NCBI GenBank assembly: GCA_013288015.1
Contig: JABDCR010000002.1
Coordinates: 1-64,000, forward strand
Source: Bacteroidota bacterium
Lineage (GTDB): Bacteria; Bacteroidota; Bacteroidia; B-17B0; Aurantibacillaceae
Direction of reading: 5' to 3'
Length of the DNA stretch: 64,000 bases
Shown: positions 54,422 through 64,000 of the stretch, one piece after another
How the letters are laid out: the number at the start of each line of letters is the position of its first letter
Numbering within the stretch: position 1 is the stretch's first letter
Program-made: the position numbers and the translations under genes
The notes under the pieces: model-generated
Told to the model about the DNA's origin: nothing
The model's input: only the letters and a program-made list of their open reading frames with translations
Database searches by the model: none

Positions 54422-54571
54422 ATGATTATGCAGTCAAAAGACATTATTATCGTAGGTGCCGGCCCAACAGGTTTAATGATGGCCAATCAATTAACTCGTT
54501 TCGGAGTCGATTATATCATTCTGGATCAAAAATCCGGGCCACCTGATCATTACAGTCTGTCCACCGCATAG
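54422..54571 (+). pseudogene. Truncated FAD-dependent monooxygenase (N-terminal fragment)
   Basis: The first 40 residues of a p-hydroxybenzoate-hydroxylase-type monooxygenase, with the FAD motif DIIIVGAGPTGLMMANQL and VDYIILDQKSG. After DQKSGP the frame continues only 9 codons on sequence that is antisense to the end of the neighbouring DHFR-like gene. The join at about 54540 marks a deletion or insertion that removed about 90 percent of the enzyme. This gene would be the natural third member of the TetR module. Confidence 0.85.
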
Positions 54572-55122
54572 TTCAGTTCAGTTACCCCTGAAGTAAATTG
54601 TCGGGTAGTCAATAGGTTTAGTTTAATTTTGTCTTTGATGTCTACAAACAATTGAATGCCTTTTCCAAGAACAATTGGATTAACAAATAGCCAGTAACCG
54701 TCAATTAAGTTCTGTTGAATAAGTGAATGTGTTGCTGTCGGGCTACCAAAAAGCAAGATTTCTCCACCTGCCTGTTGTTTTATTTCGTTTATTTTGTCCG
54801 AAAGGTTATCGCTAATAATTGTTGTATTAGCCAAACCTCCGTCTTTTATTGTTTTCGATAAAACAACTTTGTGAACTTTGTTATACCACTTTGAATGTTT
54901 AATGTCGTGCTTGCTCGCATCTGGCTTGTCTCCTGCAGTAGGCCAGTAATTTTCCATCATCTGGTAAGTTACTCGTCCATATAACGCCGTATCGGTTTCG
55001 CCTATCCGCTTACCGACATGATCAAAAAGTTCTTCATCAAGTTTGATCCAGTTCATTTCTCCGTTTACTCCTGCTACAAAACCGTCAAGCGATATGTGCA
55101 TAAATGAAATTATTTTTCTCAT
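54550..55122 (-). CDS. Dihydrofolate reductase-like (RibD C-terminal family) protein
   Basis: A 190-residue protein of the RibD_C/DHFR-like group. Landmarks: MRKIISFMHISLDGFVAG at the start, ALYGRVTYQMMENYWP, VVLSKTIKD and GGEILLFGSPTATHSLIQ, then WLFVNPIVLGKG. These small paralogs are common in stress-related operons and are distinct from true FolA. It is the last gene of a minus-strand operon with an ArsR-type regulator, an SRPBCC protein and a DoxX-like protein. Its 3' end overlaps the truncated monooxygenase frame. Confidence 0.87.
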   Translation of the reverse strand: MRKIISFMHISLDGFVAGVNGEMNWIKLDEELFDHVGKRIGETDTALYGRVTYQMMENYWPTAGDKPDASKHDIKHSKWYNKVHKVVLSKTIKDGGLANTTIISDNLSDKINEIKQQAGGEILLFGSPTATHSLIQQNLIDGYWLFVNPIVLGKGIQLFVDIKDKIKLNLLTTRQFTSGVTELNYAVDRL

Positions 55123-55192
55123 GTTTTCTATTTTTTATTATTTATGGTTTGTTACTTTCTTTATACAATGACCGCTACCCATTGGCTTTTTG

Positions 55193-55570
55193 TCACACTT
55201 TATTATTAATTGCTTTAATCTTACACCAAAAAATGTATGAAGCTGTAAGTAAGAGAATGCCAATTGAAGGAATTAGGATATTTGAACTAAAACCATCTAC
55301 TTGAATAATTGAATAGGTTGCCCCTACTAAATCAATACATAAGCCTGCATAAGCCCATTCTTTCAATCTGTTGAATTTTGGAATTAATATGGTAATTGCA
55401 CCGAGTGCTTTTGCAACGCCTAAAAAAGGCAATAGATACATCGGGTAGCCTAAATGTTCAAAGACTTTTTTTACTTCGTCTATCATTAAAATGTCAGGAA
55501 TAGCACCTAAACCCATAAACAAGGCAAACAAGATTGTTGTTGTCCAAAAAATTATTTTATTCTTTTTCAT
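55193..55570 (-). CDS. DoxX-like membrane protein
   Basis: A 125-residue DoxX_2-type protein with four membrane segments: IIFWTTTILFALFMGLGAIP, YLLPFLGVAKALGAITILIP, WAYAGLCIDLVGATYSII and ILIPSIGILLLTASYIFW. The start overlaps the upstream SRPBCC stop by 4 bases (ATGA). The combination ArsR-SRPBCC-DoxX is a widespread operon in Bacteroidota and other bacteria, with unclear physiological role. Confidence 0.82.
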   Translation of the reverse strand: MKKNKIIFWTTTILFALFMGLGAIPDILMIDEVKKVFEHLGYPMYLLPFLGVAKALGAITILIPKFNRLKEWAYAGLCIDLVGATYSIIQVDGFSSNILIPSIGILLLTASYIFWCKIKAINNKV

Positions 55571-56040
55571 TGTTGTAAAAGTTTAAGATAATTTTCAAGT
55601 CGATTTAAAGTTTGCTTACCACCTTCAATAGCATTTACCTTTTTATTTAATTCCTCAATAATTGCTTTTGACTTAAATATTGACTTCATTGTCAATAATG
55701 TTTTTCCTTCAACCTCTTCAAATAAAATTGTAACTGTGAAGTTATAATCTTCGCTTCTTTCACCAGAATGTTTATAAGATAAAAAGGATGGTTTTTTTAC
55801 TTCCACGTACTCAATTTTGCTGTCCCAATCCCTTCCCATACCATGCATAATAAAGTCCCAAATTTTGCCTGGTTCTACATTCATTGATTTTGTCGTTAGC
55901 GAAAAACCATTTGGGCCCCACCATTCTTTGATATGTTCCGGGGTAGTCCACACTTCCCAAACTAAATCCCTTGGAGCATCCAGAATTCTTGTATGTATAA
56001 GTATATTTTCTTCTTGTTTGAATGTATTGTATTTATCCAT
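55567..56040 (-). CDS. SRPBCC (AHSA1-like) protein
   Basis: A 157-residue START-like protein. The family pattern is strong: LIHTRILDAPRDLVWEVWTT, PEHIKEWWGPNGFSLTTKSM, GKIWDFIMHGMGRDW and the closing KTLLTMKSIFKSKAIIEELN. It differs in sequence from the three tandem SRPBCC genes at the left end of the window. It is coupled to the DoxX-like gene and lies 4 bases behind the ArsR gene. Confidence 0.87.
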   Translation of the reverse strand: MDKYNTFKQEENILIHTRILDAPRDLVWEVWTTPEHIKEWWGPNGFSLTTKSMNVEPGKIWDFIMHGMGRDWDSKIEYVEVKKPSFLSYKHSGERSEDYNFTVTILFEEVEGKTLLTMKSIFKSKAIIEELNKKVNAIEGGKQTLNRLENYLKLLQQ

Positions 56041-56044
56041 CTTT

Positions 56045-56371
56045 CTATTTTTTCTTTTTTTGAATTTTAGCTAAATAACTTTCCAATGAGTCAAATTTAT
56101 TATTCCAATGTTTTCGGTATTGGTTTACCCAGTCCGTTACTTCATTTAATTTTTCGAGTTTAGCTTCGCAATATCTTTCCCTGCCTTGTTGTTTGATTAC
56201 AATAAGACCACAATCATTAAGGAATTGGACATGCAATGAAACTGCTTGTCGGGTAATATCAAACTCCTTCGCAATTGCATTAACATTGAGTGATTTTTGA
56301 GCCAGCATTCCTATAATTTGTCTACGAGTTGGATCTGCTATTGCTTGAAAGATATCTCTTGTTTGTGTCAT
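56045..56371 (-). CDS. ArsR family transcriptional regulator
   Basis: A 108-residue winged-helix repressor. I start it at 56371 (MTQTRDIFQAIADPTRR); the open extension to 56422 would include the operator. The HTH is LNVNAIAKEFDITRQAVSLHV, with DPTRRQIIGMLAQ before it and the wing VIKQQGRERYCEAKLEKLN after. It lacks the CxC metal site of arsenic or cadmium sensors, fitting the group that controls SRPBCC genes. A perfect palindrome lies immediately upstream. Confidence 0.9.
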   Translation of the reverse strand: MTQTRDIFQAIADPTRRQIIGMLAQKSLNVNAIAKEFDITRQAVSLHVQFLNDCGLIVIKQQGRERYCEAKLEKLNEVTDWVNQYRKHWNNKFDSLESYLAKIQKKKK

Positions 56372-56373
56372 AA

Positions 56374-56421
56374 TGCGCAAGTAATTTCTTGCAAATATAT
56401 GCGCAATATTTGACTTGCGCA
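56374..56421 (-). promoter_or_regulatory. ArsR operator: TGCGCAA palindrome plus extra half-site
   Basis: TGCGCAA (56400-56406) and TTGCGCA (56415-56421) form a 7-bp perfect inverted repeat with an 8-base spacer; a third TGCGCAA is at 56374-56380. All are within 50 bases upstream of the ArsR start, so autoregulation is likely. Confidence 0.72.
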
Positions 56422-56601
56422 ATTTTTTTCAAAATTTCATGGAACGTGTTAACCTACGTGGTTTGTACTGTCAGACTTAAACTGTTATAGATTAGATACC
56501 CATAACGTACCTAAAGTAGATACGTGCCTGATCTTTTTTCTATGCGATATTACAAAAGGCTTATTTCTTTAATTATTCTTTCCAGTGTTTTGTTATGAGG
56601 A

Positions 56602-56822
56602 GTTAATTCATACTCAACAATAATAGACTTGGTTTATAGATGACAAATTTAATTTTCCAAACTTATTGTTTCGACAAAGTTAGTGGGTCAATTTTACTCA
56701 GAAAATTTATTGTATGAAACAAGATAAATTCTTGATAAAAGGGTGTTTAATCAAGTAAAACTACCGGTTGGTGTAAAAAAGTTTTTATTAGGGAGCAAAA
56801 TGTTGAATTTTGACACATAATT
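56602..56822 (+). repeat. Long diverged repeat A, copy 1
   Basis: About 220 bases aligning collinearly with 60082-60300. The best block (near 56744-56788, against 60220-60264) has about 41 of 45 bases the same, including TTTAATCAAGTAAAACTAC. It fills most of the 460-base gene-free gap between the ArsR operator and the DoxX gene and ends 9 bases before the DoxX start. The other copy ends 33 bases before the PorU start, so the repeat probably carries a promoter. Confidence 0.75.
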
Positions 56823-56830
56823 AAAACATT

Positions 56831-57340
56831 ATGAAAAAAATAATCAATTGGTTTTTAAACCCTCCGATAACAGGACAATCTTCTATTTTAATTATCAGAC
56901 TTACGGCTGGTGGCGTTTTTTTATGGGAAGGGATTTTGAAGTTTGTTTATGTAAACCAAGGAGTTGGCAGGTTTACAAAATTAGGTTTTCCTAACCCCGA
57001 AATGACTGCGAACTTTATTGCCACGGGTGAAATTATTGGCGGGATGTTATTGCTACTTGGGTTATTTACAAGAGTAACAGTTTTTTATTTTATTATAGAA
57101 ATGATTGTTGCCATGTTGAGTACAAAAATTGCTTTGTACTTAGGTACTAGTCCGTTGCCATTACCTCCTGCTCCGCCAAAGGATGGTATTTGGGCGGTGT
57201 TGCACGAAATACGATCGGATTATGCTCAAACTCTTTGCTGTTTATTCTTATTGATTGAAGGTGCAGGTAGAATATCGATAGATTTTATTATTTATACATC
57301 TAAAAAAATATATAGTATGAGTAAAAATAATCCTATTTAA
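56831..57340 (+). CDS. DoxX family membrane protein
   Basis: A 169-residue protein with four membrane segments: SSILIIRLTAGGVFLWEGIL (family-typical RLTAGGVFL), ATGEIIGGMLLLLGLFTRV, TVFYFIIEMIVAML, and TLCCLFLLIEGAGRISIDFI. The loop with LGTSPLPLPPAPPKDGIWAV fits longer DoxX members. The 3' end, with about 90 bases beyond, is repeated in decayed form at 58371-58533, upstream of the PorV-like gene, showing a past duplication. Monocistronic, with repeat A as its likely promoter. Confidence 0.82.
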   Translation: MKKIINWFLNPPITGQSSILIIRLTAGGVFLWEGILKFVYVNQGVGRFTKLGFPNPEMTANFIATGEIIGGMLLLLGLFTRVTVFYFIIEMIVAMLSTKIALYLGTSPLPLPPAPPKDGIWAVLHEIRSDYAQTLCCLFLLIEGAGRISIDFIIYTSKKIYSMSKNNPI

Positions 57341-57432
57341 TAAGAGGATAGATGGAACTGAAAGTAAATACATTGATTGATTGCTTATGCGATTGTTATA
57401 ATAATAATAATTTCATTTTTGATACTCTATAA
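57277..57432 (+). repeat. Long diverged repeat B, copy 1 (3' end of doxX and beyond)
   Basis: Aligns with 58371-58533 over about 155 bases, including GATGG(A/G)AAC(T/C)GAAAGTAA and CTTATGCGATT(G/A)TTATA. It spans the last 20 or so codons of the DoxX gene and its 3' flank. The two B copies bracket the response regulator gene at 57607. Confidence 0.72.
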
Positions 57433-57606
57433 GCGAGGGTAAAACAGTAAAAATAATTAAAAACACAATTAATGAAGCTAGTTTACAATGTTAGGTTGGT
57501 TTTTTAATTTCTTTTTAAATAATAATTAGTATTATGAGTCAACAAAATTTATTTTATTTTTTCATCCAAAAATAAACAAATGGTCTAAAGATTTATTTAA
57601 GTTCGT

Positions 57607-58323
57607 ATGAATGCAGTAAAAACGAAAATTTTATTAGTTGAAGAGAATGATAATTTTGGTTCTATTCTGAAAGAATATCTTGAAACAAAATTTTTCTTGG
57701 TAGAAAAAGCTAAAAACGGAAGAGAAGCTTATGATTTATTAAGTAATCAAGAGTATGATTTGTGCTTATTAGATATCAGGGTACCTTTTAAGAATGGCTT
57801 TACCCTTATTAAGGATAATCTTGCCATTACAAAAGAAATAGTAGTAAATAACAAAAAGATGCCAATCATTTTTCTTGCCGCAAATTCAACAAAGAAAGAT
57901 GTTATAAACCGATTAAATGCCCGTGTTTTTGATTATATAACCTTCCCTTTTCATGTAGAAGAGTTATTAACCCGAATACATGCTGTTTTACGACGTGAAG
58001 TAAAAATGCGAATGTCAGATAATGTTCCTATAGAATTTAGTATTGGAAAATATACTTTTAATACCGATACACAAATCCTTGCATTGGGGAAATACGAATG
58101 TAAATTAACGACTAAAGAAGTTCAATTGCTTCGTCTTTTGATGCTTAATAAAAATGAAATAGTGGATCGTTCTTATATTCTTGAAACAATATGGGGTGAA
58201 AATAATTATTTTAAGAGTCGTAGCATGGATGTATTTATTACTCAACTACGCAAACATTTAAAGAATGATGAGAAAATAGAGATTGTAAATGTGCGTGGAA
58301 AAGGGGTCAAATTACTTATTTAA
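57607..58323 (+). CDS. OmpR-type response regulator with degenerate receiver
   Basis: A 238-residue regulator. The receiver keeps phosphoacceptor D56 (LLDIRVP) and the acidic EEND near residue 13, but the conserved Thr is A91 (FLAANS) and the conserved Lys is F113 (YITFPFHVEEL). It may therefore work without classical phosphorylation. The C-terminal Trans_reg_C winged helix is intact: LTTKEVQLLRLLMLNKNEIV, then FKSRSMDVFITQLRKHLKND. No kinase is adjacent. Its position beside PorV and PorU genes suggests, without proof, a role in T9SS control, as PorX has elsewhere. Confidence 0.85.
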   Translation: MNAVKTKILLVEENDNFGSILKEYLETKFFLVEKAKNGREAYDLLSNQEYDLCLLDIRVPFKNGFTLIKDNLAITKEIVVNNKKMPIIFLAANSTKKDVINRLNARVFDYITFPFHVEELLTRIHAVLRREVKMRMSDNVPIEFSIGKYTFNTDTQILALGKYECKLTTKEVQLLRLLMLNKNEIVDRSYILETIWGENNYFKSRSMDVFITQLRKHLKNDEKIEIVNVRGKGVKLLI

Positions 58324-58370
58324 GCCTTAATGCTATGATGGCAAATTATATTAATTACTATTCATAGGGA

Positions 58371-58533
58371 GATATGATTAGGCTTATTTTATTATTTACA
58401 CATCGAAAAAAGTATATAATATAGGAAAATAATATTACTTATATAATAAAGTAGATGGGAACCGAAAGTAAGTATGTTGATTTGAATACTTATGCGATTA
58501 TTATAGTAATAATTTCATATTTTATATTCTAAG
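58371..58533 (+). repeat. Long diverged repeat B, copy 2 (doxX 3' relic)
   Basis: A decayed copy of the doxX 3' end: one frame still reads FIIYTSKKVYNIGK then stop, against FIIYTSKKIYSMSK in the intact gene. It fills most of the 240-base gap upstream of the PorV-like gene. Confidence 0.72.
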
Positions 58534-58563
58534 TGTAAATTCAAATTTATTAGTTCTATCCGA

Positions 58564-59676
58564 ATGTTTTCTTTCAAAAAAAGTCTTTTAGTTAGTTTAT
58601 TGGTTTGCAACAGCATAGCGTTTTCGCAATCGTCGGTTGCCAAATACAGTAATGAGTTTTTAGCCATTGGTGTTAGCGCCCGTGCTTTGGCTATGGGCGG
58701 TGCGTGCATTGTAAGTACAAACGATGTGTCGGCAGGATATTTTAACCCCGCAAACTTGTTAAAAATTAAACCCAAGTTTCAATTAGCTTTAATGCATGCC
58801 GAATACTATGCCGGCATTTCTAAATACGATTATGGTGCTTTTTCAACCCGTATAGATAGTAATAGTACAGCCTCGGTAAGCGTTATTCGTTTTGGCACCG
58901 ATAACATTCCAAACACGCTAAATTTAATAGATAATAACGGAAATGTAAACTACAACCAAATAAGCAGCTTTTCGGTAACCAACTTTGCAGCCTTACTTTC
59001 TTACGCGCGTAAAATCCCTAAACTAAAAGGGGTTAATGTGGGTGCTACGGCAAAAATTGTGCGTAATAAATTAGGTCCGTTTGGGGGTTCGTGGGGTTTT
59101 GGTTTTGATATAGGCGCATCCTACTCGTATAAAAAATGGAACTTTGCAGCCGTAGGGCGCGATATTACGGGTACATTTAATGCTTACACCTATACACTAA
59201 CCGATGCGCAAAAGCAAGTGTTTGCAGCTACAGGTAACGTTATTCCTTCAAACTCATTAGAGGTAACTTTGCCCAGGTTAATTTTGGGTGCATCGCGCAC
59301 CTTTACCTTAATGAAAAACAAATTAACCATTATGCCCGAAGTTAATTTAATAACCACGTTTGATGGTAAGCGTAATGTGTTGCTTGCTACCAGGGCTTTT
59401 AGTACCGACCCGGTTATGGGCTTAGAAATTGGTTATTTGCGCATGATTTATTTACGCGCAGGTGTAAATAATATACAAAAAATGACTGATGTGTCCGGTA
59501 AATCACAAACAGTGGTTTCGCCAAGTGTTGGTGTCGGAATCAAGTATAAAATTTTTCAATTAGATTACGCACTTACTTATTTTGGCGGCGGAAATAATGG
59601 TATAGGTTTATACAGCAATATTTTCTCATTAAAAATAGATATCAATAACTTGCATCTTCCTAAGCCAAAAGCATAA
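58564..59676 (+). CDS. PorV family T9SS outer-membrane protein (PorV2-like)
   Basis: A 370-residue barrel of the PorV/LptO family. Signal peptide SLLVSLLVCNSIAFSQ; the family opening follows: SNEFLAIGVSARALAMGGAC and DVSAGYFNPANLLKIKP, with a FadL-like series of strands to the end. In T9SS, PorV shuttles cargo from the translocon to the sortase PorU. The next gene begins one base after its stop and encodes a PorU2-like N-terminus, so this is likely the PorV2 of a PorV2-PorU2 pair rather than the main PorV, which may lie beyond the window. Confidence 0.82.
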   Translation: MFSFKKSLLVSLLVCNSIAFSQSSVAKYSNEFLAIGVSARALAMGGACIVSTNDVSAGYFNPANLLKIKPKFQLALMHAEYYAGISKYDYGAFSTRIDSNSTASVSVIRFGTDNIPNTLNLIDNNGNVNYNQISSFSVTNFAALLSYARKIPKLKGVNVGATAKIVRNKLGPFGGSWGFGFDIGASYSYKKWNFAAVGRDITGTFNAYTYTLTDAQKQVFAATGNVIPSNSLEVTLPRLILGASRTFTLMKNKLTIMPEVNLITTFDGKRNVLLATRAFSTDPVMGLEIGYLRMIYLRAGVNNIQKMTDVSGKSQTVVSPSVGVGIKYKIFQLDYALTYFGGGNNGIGLYSNIFSLKIDINNLHLPKPKA

Positions 59677-60084
59677 ATGATTAAAACACGCATTACATAC
59701 GCAGTTTTGTTTGTATTTGTGGCGTTATCCGTTTTTTCGCAAACACCCGGTTTTAATAATAGCTGGATTAATTTTGGGCAAAAATATTACAAAATAAAAG
59801 TTGCCGTTGATGGTTTATATAAATTAGACTCGGCTTCGTTATCTGCTGCCGGGGTACCAATAAACACTATTGACCCGCACCATATACAGCTTTTTCAAAA
59901 AGGAAAAGAGCTTTATCCCTACATAGCCGGTGAGGCGGATAGTGTGTTGAACACTCGCGATTATATTTTATTTTATGCCGAAAAAAATAACGGTAAAGAC
60001 GACTCTCTTTTGTTTTCTATATATCCAAACGCTCCTTACTTAACCAATCCATATTTTAGTGTAATTAACGATACATCGGCGTAA
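59677..60084 (+). pseudogene. Truncated PorU2-like sortase (N-terminal fragment)
   Basis: A 135-residue open frame starting one base after the PorV-like stop, with a signal peptide (ITYAVLFVFVALSVFSQ). It matches the beginning of PorU2-type C25 proteins: WINFGQKYYKIKVAVDGLYK, LSAAGVPINTIDPHHIQLFQ and YILFYAEKNNGKDDSLLFS, ending PYFSVINDTSA, where intact proteins continue for about a thousand residues. The break coincides with the start of repeat A copy 2. The catalytic domain is absent. Confidence 0.8.
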
Positions 60085-60300
60085 AGAATTAATACAATGC
60101 CAAAAAAGAGAATGATATATGATCGATTTAATTTTCAAGCTGATTGTTTTAACAAATATAGTGAACAGGCTTTTTTTCATAAATTTATTACATAAAAAAG
60201 TTAAATTCTTAATAAAAGGATATTTAATCAAGTAAAACTACTGGTTGATGTAAAAAAGTTTTTACTAAAGAATTAAGTGCAGAATTTTGCTATATAATTT
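60082..60300 (+). repeat. Long diverged repeat A, copy 2
   Basis: The partner of 56602-56822. It begins at the exact point where the PorU2-like frame stops and ends 33 bases before the PorU start, so it is both the breakpoint sequence and the likely PorU promoter region. Confidence 0.75.
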
Positions 60301-60332
60301 AAACAGCCAAACAAGTTTAATATTTTCAGCAG

Positions 60333-63300
60333 ATGATTTTTAACAAAAGATTTTATCTAATAATTTTTATGTTGGTTTGCTTTTGCAAAATAATTTCTCA
60401 ATCATTGAAAGTGCAAAAAAACAACTTAGTGGAAGAGATTGGTGTTATTAAAATTAAATGGCGCACGCCATTTAATTTTCAGCGAAAGGGAGAAACAATT
60501 AAAACACTTTCTTTTGAAGGCTCGACTTTTATGGAAGAAAAGGATTTTTTGCCCTTTTTGTATTTAAAAGAAGCTTGCAAACAAGGTGTTAAATTACAAG
60601 CCATTGTGCAACCTATTTTAACCGAAACTTTAACCGCACAAGAAGAGGCAAGTGTGAATAAAAAATATGTTACAGATAACTTTGACATTGTAGAACCTTC
60701 TGTAAAAACAGAGAGAAAGGTGCCTTATATGTGTTGCAAATTAGTTCCTATCCGCATAAATAAAACAACGGGTAAATTAGAAAAATTAGTTTCGTATCGC
60801 ATACAATGGCAATCAACATCAGAACCTTTATTAGCTAATGGACGTAACGGAAATCATTATAATAAAATGCAATCTTTTGTAGGTTCATCTGTATTAGAAA
60901 ACGATACTTGGTTTAAAATAAGTACGGCCGAAAATGCTGTATATAAAATTGATAAAGCAATGTTAAAGAGTATGGGGGTTGATGTTGGTTCTATTGATCC
61001 AAGGAACATTAAAATATATGGCAATGGAGGCGAAATTTTATCAGAAGCTAATAGCGATTTTCATTACGATGATTTAACTGAGAATGCCATCTTTGTTCAA
61101 GGCGAAGCCGATGGAAAGTTTGACAACACCGATTATATCTTATTTTATGGTCAATCTCCACACAAATGGAAATACAATGCGGGTGCAAATGAATGTACCC
61201 GATATATAAGAAACAAACATTATTATTCTGATTCTGTTTTTTATTTTTTAACTATAGATAACTCTTCTTTCGGAAAAAGAATTACATCTGTGTCAAACGC
61301 TTCTACCCCTGCAACCAACATGGTTACCAGTTTTGATGATTATATAGCTTATGAAAAAGATCTCACTAATATGGTAACATCGGGCAGAGAACTTTATGGC
61401 GAAAACTTTGATAATACTCAAAATTATTCCTTTCCTTTTTCGTTTCCCAATTTACAAAATGATACCATTTGGCTGCAAACAAATTTAGTTGGCAGGCGTG
61501 TGTTACCATTAGGGCAAGGCAGATTTGATGTATCATATCCTGGTGGCTCCTCTGCTATAAATTTTTCAGCAACTGGTTCCAATTTTGACGATGATGCGGC
61601 TGAGCCAGGAACGGCTTGTACATATTTTGTATATAACAATGCTAGTTCAAATTTACCTATTAATATTAGTGTTAACCGTACTTATACTGACGAAACCGGC
61701 TGGTTAAATTATATATGGGTGGTTGCCCGCAGAGCGTTAACTATGTATAGTAATCAAATGACGTTTAGAGATTACCGTAGTATTGGCGCAAATGCAGTTT
61801 CTCAATTTAATTTACAAAGTACATCCTCTACATTACGCATTTGGAATGTTACTGACCAATTTAATGTTAGAGAACAGCAAATAACTTTTGCTGCTAATAG
61901 TTACTCATTTACTGCAATCACTGATAGTCTAGAACAATTTATTGCATTTGATAGTACATCAATTTATAAAACACCCGGTTTTGTAGGACAACTAGCTAAT
62001 CAAAATTTACATGCTATGCTAAGTGGACCTGCAGATTATATTATTATTGCTCCTCAAAGTTTTTTGGGTCAAGCCCAACAACTTGCTCAACTACATAATA
62101 AATATGAACATTTATCATCTGTTATTGTCACTCCCGATCAAATTTATAATGAGTTTTCATCGGGTGCACAGGATATTATGGCTATTCGTCAATTTGTACG
62201 TATGTATTATAAAACCTTTATCTCGCGTCCGCCACAGTATTTATTGTTATTAGGCACCGGCTCTTATAAACAAAAAGACAGATACAATCCTTCTAATACA
62301 GTGCTTGTTCCTACATTTGAAACATATAACTCATGGAGTTATATTCAATCTAAAACCGGCGACGATTTTTATGCTTTTTTAGATGATAACGAAGGCAGCA
62401 TAAGTCCTGATGGCATACCTGATGGACTTATTGACATTGGAGTAGGACGTTTGGTTGTTAAAAATAGTAATGAAGCTACCAGCGTTACCAATAAAATAAT
62501 ACAGTACTATAACAGGGTTGAACCTACTTCAAGCTGTTGCGACCAAGCCACACAAAACACTCCCGATTGGCGTAATTGGGTTTCTCTAATTGCTGATGAT
62601 GCCAATCCCGGTTCAACAGGTGAGGATGCGTTTTTTCAGCAACAAGAAGCAATTGCCATTTCAATACAGCAAGGTGATCCAACCTATAATATTGACAAAA
62701 TTTATGAAGATGCTTATCAGGTAGAAGCAGTACCGGGGGGCAGACGTTATCCGGATGTGGTAACAGCCATTAATAACCGTGTTGCAAAAGGGGCTTTAAT
62801 AATTGGCTACTCGGGGCATGGCGATGTGCTTGAATTATCACATGAAGAAATTATAACTATTAGTCAAATACAGAATTGGAATAATATTAATAATATGCCC
62901 TTGTTTTTTACCGCTACATGCGAGTTTAGTAGGTACGATGACCCAACTTTAGAGTCAGCGGGAGAAGATATTTTATTAAATCCTAACGGAGGCGGTATTG
63001 GTTTATTTACTACTACCCGAGTTGCTTATGTTTCGGATGGTTGGAGTTTAGGTCCATTTTTTTATGCGGCAGCAATTGACTCTATGGTTAATGGAAGACC
63101 CCCTACACTTGGTGATATAATACGTATAACAAAGGCTGACCCTGCAAGATCAGGATATCTTCATTTTGCGTTACTGGGTGATCCTGCCCTTACACTTTCT
63201 TATCCAAAGCAAAGTACCAGTCCGGTAAAAGTAAATGCACATCCTTATACGCTTAATATTAATGACACCTTATCTGCCTTAGGAAAATATACTGTTACGG

Positions 63301-64000
63301 GATATATATCTAATACCGCAGGAAACAAAGCGACCACCTTTAATGGTACCATGTATATTAGTGTGTTCGATAAACCATCTTTATTAACTACATTAAATAA
63401 TTCGCAAAATACACCTGCTTCAAGTTATATTCTAAATTTCCTTCAGCAAAAAAGTGTTTTATATAAAGGTAAGGCTACCGTTATTAACGGAGATTTTAGT
63501 TTTACTTTTATTATGCCAAAAGATATTGCGTACAACTTTGGTAATGGGAAACTAAGTTATTATGCTCAAACTGATACCACAGATGCTGCAGGTTATTATG
63601 GGCAAATTATTATTGGCGGCACAAGCAACACACCAATAGTTGATCACCAAGGACCGGGAATTAAGTTATTTATGAACGATGATAAATTTGTATCGGGTGG
63701 TACCACTAATCAAAACCCATTTATATATGCCATGTTATCTGATTCATCAGGTGTTAACACCTCGGGTAATGGTTTGGGACATGACATAACTGCTATTTTA
63801 GATGCAAACACCCCTCACGAAGTTGTTTTAAATGATTACTACCAAGCAGATTTAAACAAATATCAATCGGGTAAAATATTGTATCAATTACATAGTTTAT
63901 CAAATGGTAACCATACTTTAAGTTTAAAGGTTTGGGATGTTTTAGATAACTCAAGCACCACTTCAACTGACTTTGTTGTTGCACAAAATGCTCAAATGGC
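60333..64000 (+). CDS. porU: T9SS sortase PorU (C25 peptidase), runs off the window
   Basis: At least 1,222 residues, open at the right edge. Signal peptide FYLIIFMLVCFCKIISQ. The N-terminal region has YMCCKLVPIRINKTTGKLEK and WFKISTAENAVYKIDKAMLK, as in the PorU propeptide part. The C25 gingipain-like catalytic domain shows H829 (GYSGHGDV) and C863 (FTATCEFSRYDD), followed by FALLGDPALTLSYP. PorU cleaves the sorting domain of T9SS cargo and attaches it to lipopolysaccharide. The cargo proteins elsewhere in the window are its expected substrates. Catalytic residues are intact, so it should be active. Confidence 0.9.
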   Translation, partial: MIFNKRFYLIIFMLVCFCKIISQSLKVQKNNLVEEIGVIKIKWRTPFNFQRKGETIKTLSFEGSTFMEEKDFLPFLYLKEACKQGVKLQAIVQPILTETLTAQEEASVNKKYVTDNFDIVEPSVKTERKVPYMCCKLVPIRINKTTGKLEKLVSYRIQWQSTSEPLLANGRNGNHYNKMQSFVGSSVLENDTWFKISTAENAVYKIDKAMLKSMGVDVGSIDPRNIKIYGNGGEILSEANSDFHYDDLTENAIFVQGEADGKFDNTDYILFYGQSPHKWKYNAGANECTRYIRNKHYYSDSVFYFLTIDNSSFGKRITSVSNASTPATNMVTSFDDYIAYEKDLTNMVTSGRELYGENFDNTQNYSFPFSFPNLQNDTIWLQTNLVGRRVLPLGQGRFDVSYPGGSSAINFSATGSNFDDDAAEPGTACTYFVYNNASSNLPINISVNRTYTDETGWLNYIWVVARRALTMYSNQMTFRDYRSIGANAVSQFNLQSTSSTLRIWNVTDQFNVREQQITFAANSYSFTAITDSLEQFIAFDSTSIYKTPGFVGQLANQNLHAMLSGPADYIIIAPQSFLGQAQQLAQLHNKYEHLSSVIVTPDQIYNEFSSGAQDIMAIRQFVRMYYKTFISRPPQYLLLLGTGSYKQKDRYNPSNTVLVPTFETYNSWSYIQSKTGDDFYAFLDDNEGSISPDGIPDGLIDIGVGRLVVKNSNEATSVTNKIIQYYNRVEPTSSCCDQATQNTPDWRNWVSLIADDANPGSTGEDAFFQQQEAIAISIQQGDPTYNIDKIYEDAYQVEAVPGGRRYPDVVTAINNRVAKGALIIGYSGHGDVLELSHEEIITISQIQNWNNINNMPLFFTATCEFSRYDDPTLESAGEDILLNPNGGGIGLFTTTRVAYVSDGWSLGPFFYAAAIDSMVNGRPPTLGDIIRITKADPARSGYLHFALLGDPALTLSYPKQSTSPVKVNAHPYTLNINDTLSALGKYTVTGYISNTAGNKATTFNGTMYISVFDKPSLLTTLNNSQNTPASSYILNFLQQKSVLYKGKATVINGDFSFTFIMPKDIAYNFGNGKLSYYAQTDTTDAAGYYGQIIIGGTSNTPIVDHQGPGIKLFMNDDKFVSGGTTNQNPFIYAMLSDSSGVNTSGNGLGHDITAILDANTPHEVVLNDYYQADLNKYQSGKILYQLHSLSNGNHTLSLKVWDVLDNSSTTSTDFVVAQNAQM

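Follow-up and report, generated by a model that had tools for sequence, protein, structure and literature searches.

The T9SS genes near the end of the 64,000-nt window, which is the whole stretch of DNA that was analyzed, are accompanied by two pairs of long diverged repeats, and the question is what these repeats are and how they came to lie among secretion genes. The window belongs to contig C2 of G000, a metagenome-assembled genome of 98 contigs that is 58% complete. The significance of the repeats was assessed by blastn against the whole genome and by local alignment, the scores of which were compared with those of 500 dinucleotide-preserving shuffles. The best local alignment of repeat A (56602-56830) with repeat A′ (60082-60305) connected 56636-56828 to 60115-60305 with 77% identity over ~195 bases (E 3.2e-33), while that of repeat B (57277-57440) with repeat B′ (58371-58533) connected 57282-57429 to 58386-58531 with 79% identity over ~150 bases (E 3.9e-26). 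The scores of 161 for A/A′ and 139 for B/B′ were more than threefold above every shuffle, the maxima of which were 35 and 40, respectively, and so the pairs exist as originally described and are not a chance similarity of AT-rich DNA. When the sequences of relatives were used as guides, the A/A′ homology reached left to ~56600 and ~60082. All copies are direct repeats on the plus strand, and they are nested in the order A-B-B′-A′, not interleaved as had been proposed. A third full or long copy of either repeat was not present in the 98-contig, 58% complete assembly, where the only linked trace of them, 25 bases long, was located at the tip of contig C14.

The identity of the repeats is explained by the doxX gene, which follows A (56831-57340, plus strand). 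This gene is intact, and its product exceeded the gathering cut-off of the Pfam DoxX family (57.6 bits versus 23.6; 2e-15). A scan of one genome each for 84,980 species found 28 relatives of this doxX; the best of them, in Chitinophagaceae and other Bacteroidota, shared 80-81% of their amino acids with it. In the family itself, a search of 86 other genomes gave no match at E<=1e-25. This patchy distribution suggests that doxX was probably acquired by horizontal transfer as part of a lytS/doxX module. Many of these doxX loci have upstream of the gene a divergent pair encoding a sensor kinase of the LytS type and a response regulator of the LytTR type; the names lytS and lytR are based on sequence resemblance and gene context, and not on a family search. 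The lytS-doxX intergenic region is conserved across genera, with A-like sequence between the divergent genes in at least ten Bacteroidota loci, and it contains the palindrome CTTGAT-N12/13-ATCAAG. Both A and A′ belong to this region. A lies immediately 5′ of doxX, and what remains at its left edge of the start of the divergent lytS is degenerate, while A′ retains on the minus strand, at 60139-60091, the first lytS codons (reverse-strand LKIKSIIYHSLFW versus LRNKPLLYHSLFW). No Rfam family reached the gathering threshold over 56000-61000, and the conserved Bacteroidota lytS-doxX intergenic region highlighted here is not in Rfam; also, a literature search found no publication on DoxX together with LytTR.

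The remainder of the module was found on contig C14. An intact lytR, 80% identical in amino acids to the doxX-linked lytR, is located at the very end of this contig, beside a C-terminal stump consisting of the last 120 codons of lytS. Hence, no intact divergent lytS adjoins doxX in G000; its N-terminal relics are at A and A′, and its C-terminal part is on C14. The stump together with the doxX 3′-end bases occupies L090:5228-5592, where the tip of the contig, TTTTATTATTTATAC, matches the doxX 3′ end exactly over 15 bases and is followed by mid-lytS sequence. Judged from this sequence, the C14 tip looks like another rearranged copy of the module, although the doxX-lytS join spans just 15-25 bases. 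The most similar arrangement is a locus with lytS/lytR and doxX in divergent orientation, present in Chitinophagaceae (e.g., Chitinophaga niastensis, L053) and other Bacteroidota, and it shares doxX (80% amino acid identity), lytR (80%, for the copy on C14) and a region homologous to A. In contrast to that locus, the G000 module is split over two contigs, its lytS is broken, and C2 has two copies of its intergenic region, in linkage with T9SS genes. On the other side of A, a minus-strand cluster of ArsR, AHSA1, DoxX_2, and RibD-like genes is located at 54550-56422, and a RibD-like gene (56% amino acid identity) also adjoins lytR in L055.

Repeat B contains the last doxX codons and about 100 bases downstream. 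In B′ about 15 doxX codons are still recognizable at 58386-58430, which agrees with the earlier view of B′ as a relic of a doxX 3′ end; this relic comes from a second doxX and abuts the last ~30 native bases upstream of porV2. Between B and B′ there is an OmpR/RprY-type response regulator gene (57607-58323, plus strand; Pfam Response_reg and Trans_reg_C), which is an extra RprY-type paralogue with 58% amino acid identity to the copy on contig C32 of the same genome. At E<=1e-50 G000 has four RprY-type matches (on C2, C32, C39, and C8), and every other genome of the genus has one.

The T9SS genes follow directly, all on the plus strand. The porV2 gene (58564-59676) is intact (NCBIfam PorVQ2, 7.9e-129), with a dN/dS of about 0.07 to the related genome G003. 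The next gene, porU2 (59677-60084), is a stump of 135 of about 1750 codons; it matched the NCBIfam PorU2 profile (7e-40) only at positions 5-127 of 879, with 137 bits versus the cut-off of 450, and the remaining part of the gene is absent from the 58% complete assembly. Finally, porU (60333-63998, a 1323-aa open reading frame that runs past the window) encodes a T9SS sortase with a C25 peptidase domain, which exceeded the NCBIfam T9SS_sortase cut-off (1072.6 bits versus 420). A literature search found no publication on PorU2 or PorV2 as T9SS proteins.

The comparison with relatives defined how these genes were joined. In G001 and G002, which belong to the same genus, porV2 (73-84% amino acid identity) directly adjoins a full-length porU2 (1750 and 1732 codons) in the same gene order, and the locus is free of repeats, as the original prediction had anticipated, while in G000 porU2 is cut after 135 codons and B′ replaces the DNA upstream of porV2. 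In G001 and G003 this upstream position is occupied by the end of a glycosyltransferase-like gene. The porU gene of relatives is at a separate locus, where in G003 and G005 it lies opposite porP/sprF-like and gldJ-like genes. On C2 porU has a porV-like gene downstream and the porU2 stump and A′ upstream; its gldJ-like neighbor was not found in G000, the assembly of which is 58% complete. The block homologous to the porV2 locus of relatives extends from 58534, just after B′, to ~60081, just before A′. The similarity of porU2 to its relatives ends at this last position and is followed by a stop codon at 60082-60084, which confirms that the start of A′ is the exact point of the porU2 break. The homology to the relatives' porU begins at ~60289, and the native DNA retained upstream of porU amounts to only about 44 bases. 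The possibility that A′ is the native upstream DNA of porU was ruled out, because relatives have other DNA there. Since these limits of homology fall at the edges of the repeats, module fragments are present at each join, and the upstream DNA has been replaced for porV2 as well as for porU. Hence, the locus is not a single T9SS locus that was dissected, as first thought, but a junction of two loci, porV2-porU2 and porU-porV, which are unlinked in relatives.

These data suggest, with good probability, that A-doxX-B is the end of a lytS/doxX module, fragments of the copies of which were left where the two T9SS loci became joined. The acquired module would have had the order lytR-lytS<-A->doxX, with A as the shared divergent promoter region and A-doxX-B as one of its ends. 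It would have been duplicated repeatedly in this lineage, and illegitimate or homologous recombination would have broken the resulting copies, so that the DNA upstream of porV2 gave way to one broken end, B′, and another, A′, came to lie between the truncated porU2 and porU, in place of the DNA upstream of porU. In this way two loci that are apart in relatives could have become one. What counts against this explanation is that the data come from a 58% complete metagenome-assembled genome, in which copy number or strain mixture could matter, that the doxX-lytS join at the C14 tip is so short, that the order B′-A′ requires the assumption of additional copies or events, and that a similar porU2 break occurs in G003.

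The incompleteness and fragmentation of the assembly also bear on whether C2 is instead chimeric, or merged from strain variants, and wrongly connects porV2 and the porU2 stump, A′, and porU. Several relatives' contigs also end near porV2 or porU2, C14 ends inside the same module, and the porU2 join of G003 is unusual as well. On the other hand, porV2, the porU2 stump, and porU all have their closest relatives in one and the same sister species, random chimerism would not be expected to place diverged copies of one foreign module at the joins, and at 77-79% identity these copies differ too much to behave as assembly repeats, which makes such an artefact improbable. Still less credible is that A and B delimit a doxX-carrying mobile element that inserted several times. 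Module pieces at several joins and the patchy distribution of doxX could be expected for such an element, but there is no transposase between A and A′, there are no terminal inverted repeats and no other copies in the assembly that share common ends, no plasmid, phage, or viral-contig match was obtained, and A in relatives is an ordinary lytS-doxX intergenic region. This candidate was therefore rejected. The locus is most likely the product of ordinary genome rearrangement, that is, old and partly decayed debris of a duplicated foreign module, and it offers a readable case of such a module breaking up and placing regulatory DNA upstream of resident secretion genes.

The order of events is less simple than duplication followed by deletions, as had been proposed. 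Duplication is consistent with the direct repeats, the sister relationship of A and A′, and the doxX relic in B′, but a single duplication with deletion gives A-B-A′-B′, with A before B in both copies, and cannot place B′ before A′. Therefore, the observed order needs more copies or further events. We infer either a tandem array of the unit A-doxX-B-porV2-porU2 stump, in at least three copies, parts of which were later lost, or two nested integrations followed by deletions.

The relationship between A and A′ was analyzed with a FastTree tree built on the alignment of both copies and twelve relatives. The data showed that A and A′ are sisters (support 1.0), with branch lengths of 0.40 for A and 0.107 for A′. 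They agree in 85 of the 97 columns conserved among relatives (88%) and in 79 of the 132 other columns (60%; Fisher p 3e-6), and the relatives' consensus at the conserved columns is matched 86 times by A′ and 79 times by A. Because the agreement is concentrated in the conserved columns, the core of A/A′ was under constraint for a large part of the period since the two copies diverged, although some of this period may predate the present arrangement. As the native DNA upstream of porU is gone and A′ is in its place, porU may be transcribed from A′ as a putative promoter. A stronger proposal is that A′ was fixed and is maintained by selection, with porU under control of the acquired lytTR/doxX promoter. 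The concentrated agreement of A and A′, the closer fit of A′ to the consensus, and its shorter branch are in favor of it, while the constraint could be older than the move, and the lytS gene broken at C14 could mean that the regulatory pair is dead; we thus regard this proposal as rather unlikely. If it were true, T9SS expression would have been rewired by promoter capture, with a sortase gene under a foreign promoter. Tandem duplication with promoter capture is described as a route to gene activation in PMC11111574, where a duplicated segment may set a gene behind another promoter, whereas the G000 case is read from old, diverged copies.

The age of the porU2 break can be considered from substitution rates. 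The dN/dS of the stump was about 0.16 versus G003, and that of porU was 0.13. This similarity argues against long neutral decay of the stump, which suggests that either the cut is recent or the stump has been kept. In G003 porU2 (contig C64, L030:6150-7190) is also cut, within 6-10 bases of the break point in the window, and is joined head-on to a truncated glycosyltransferase-like gene at about codon 201; the gene order in relatives suggests that this join arose by inversion. A shared break position is expected by chance in well under 1% of cases, and it may reflect a hotspot, a shared event, or coincidence. In G005 porV2 and porU2 are separated by ~3.8 kb (L032:9375-13162) containing a LuxR-type regulator and two other genes.
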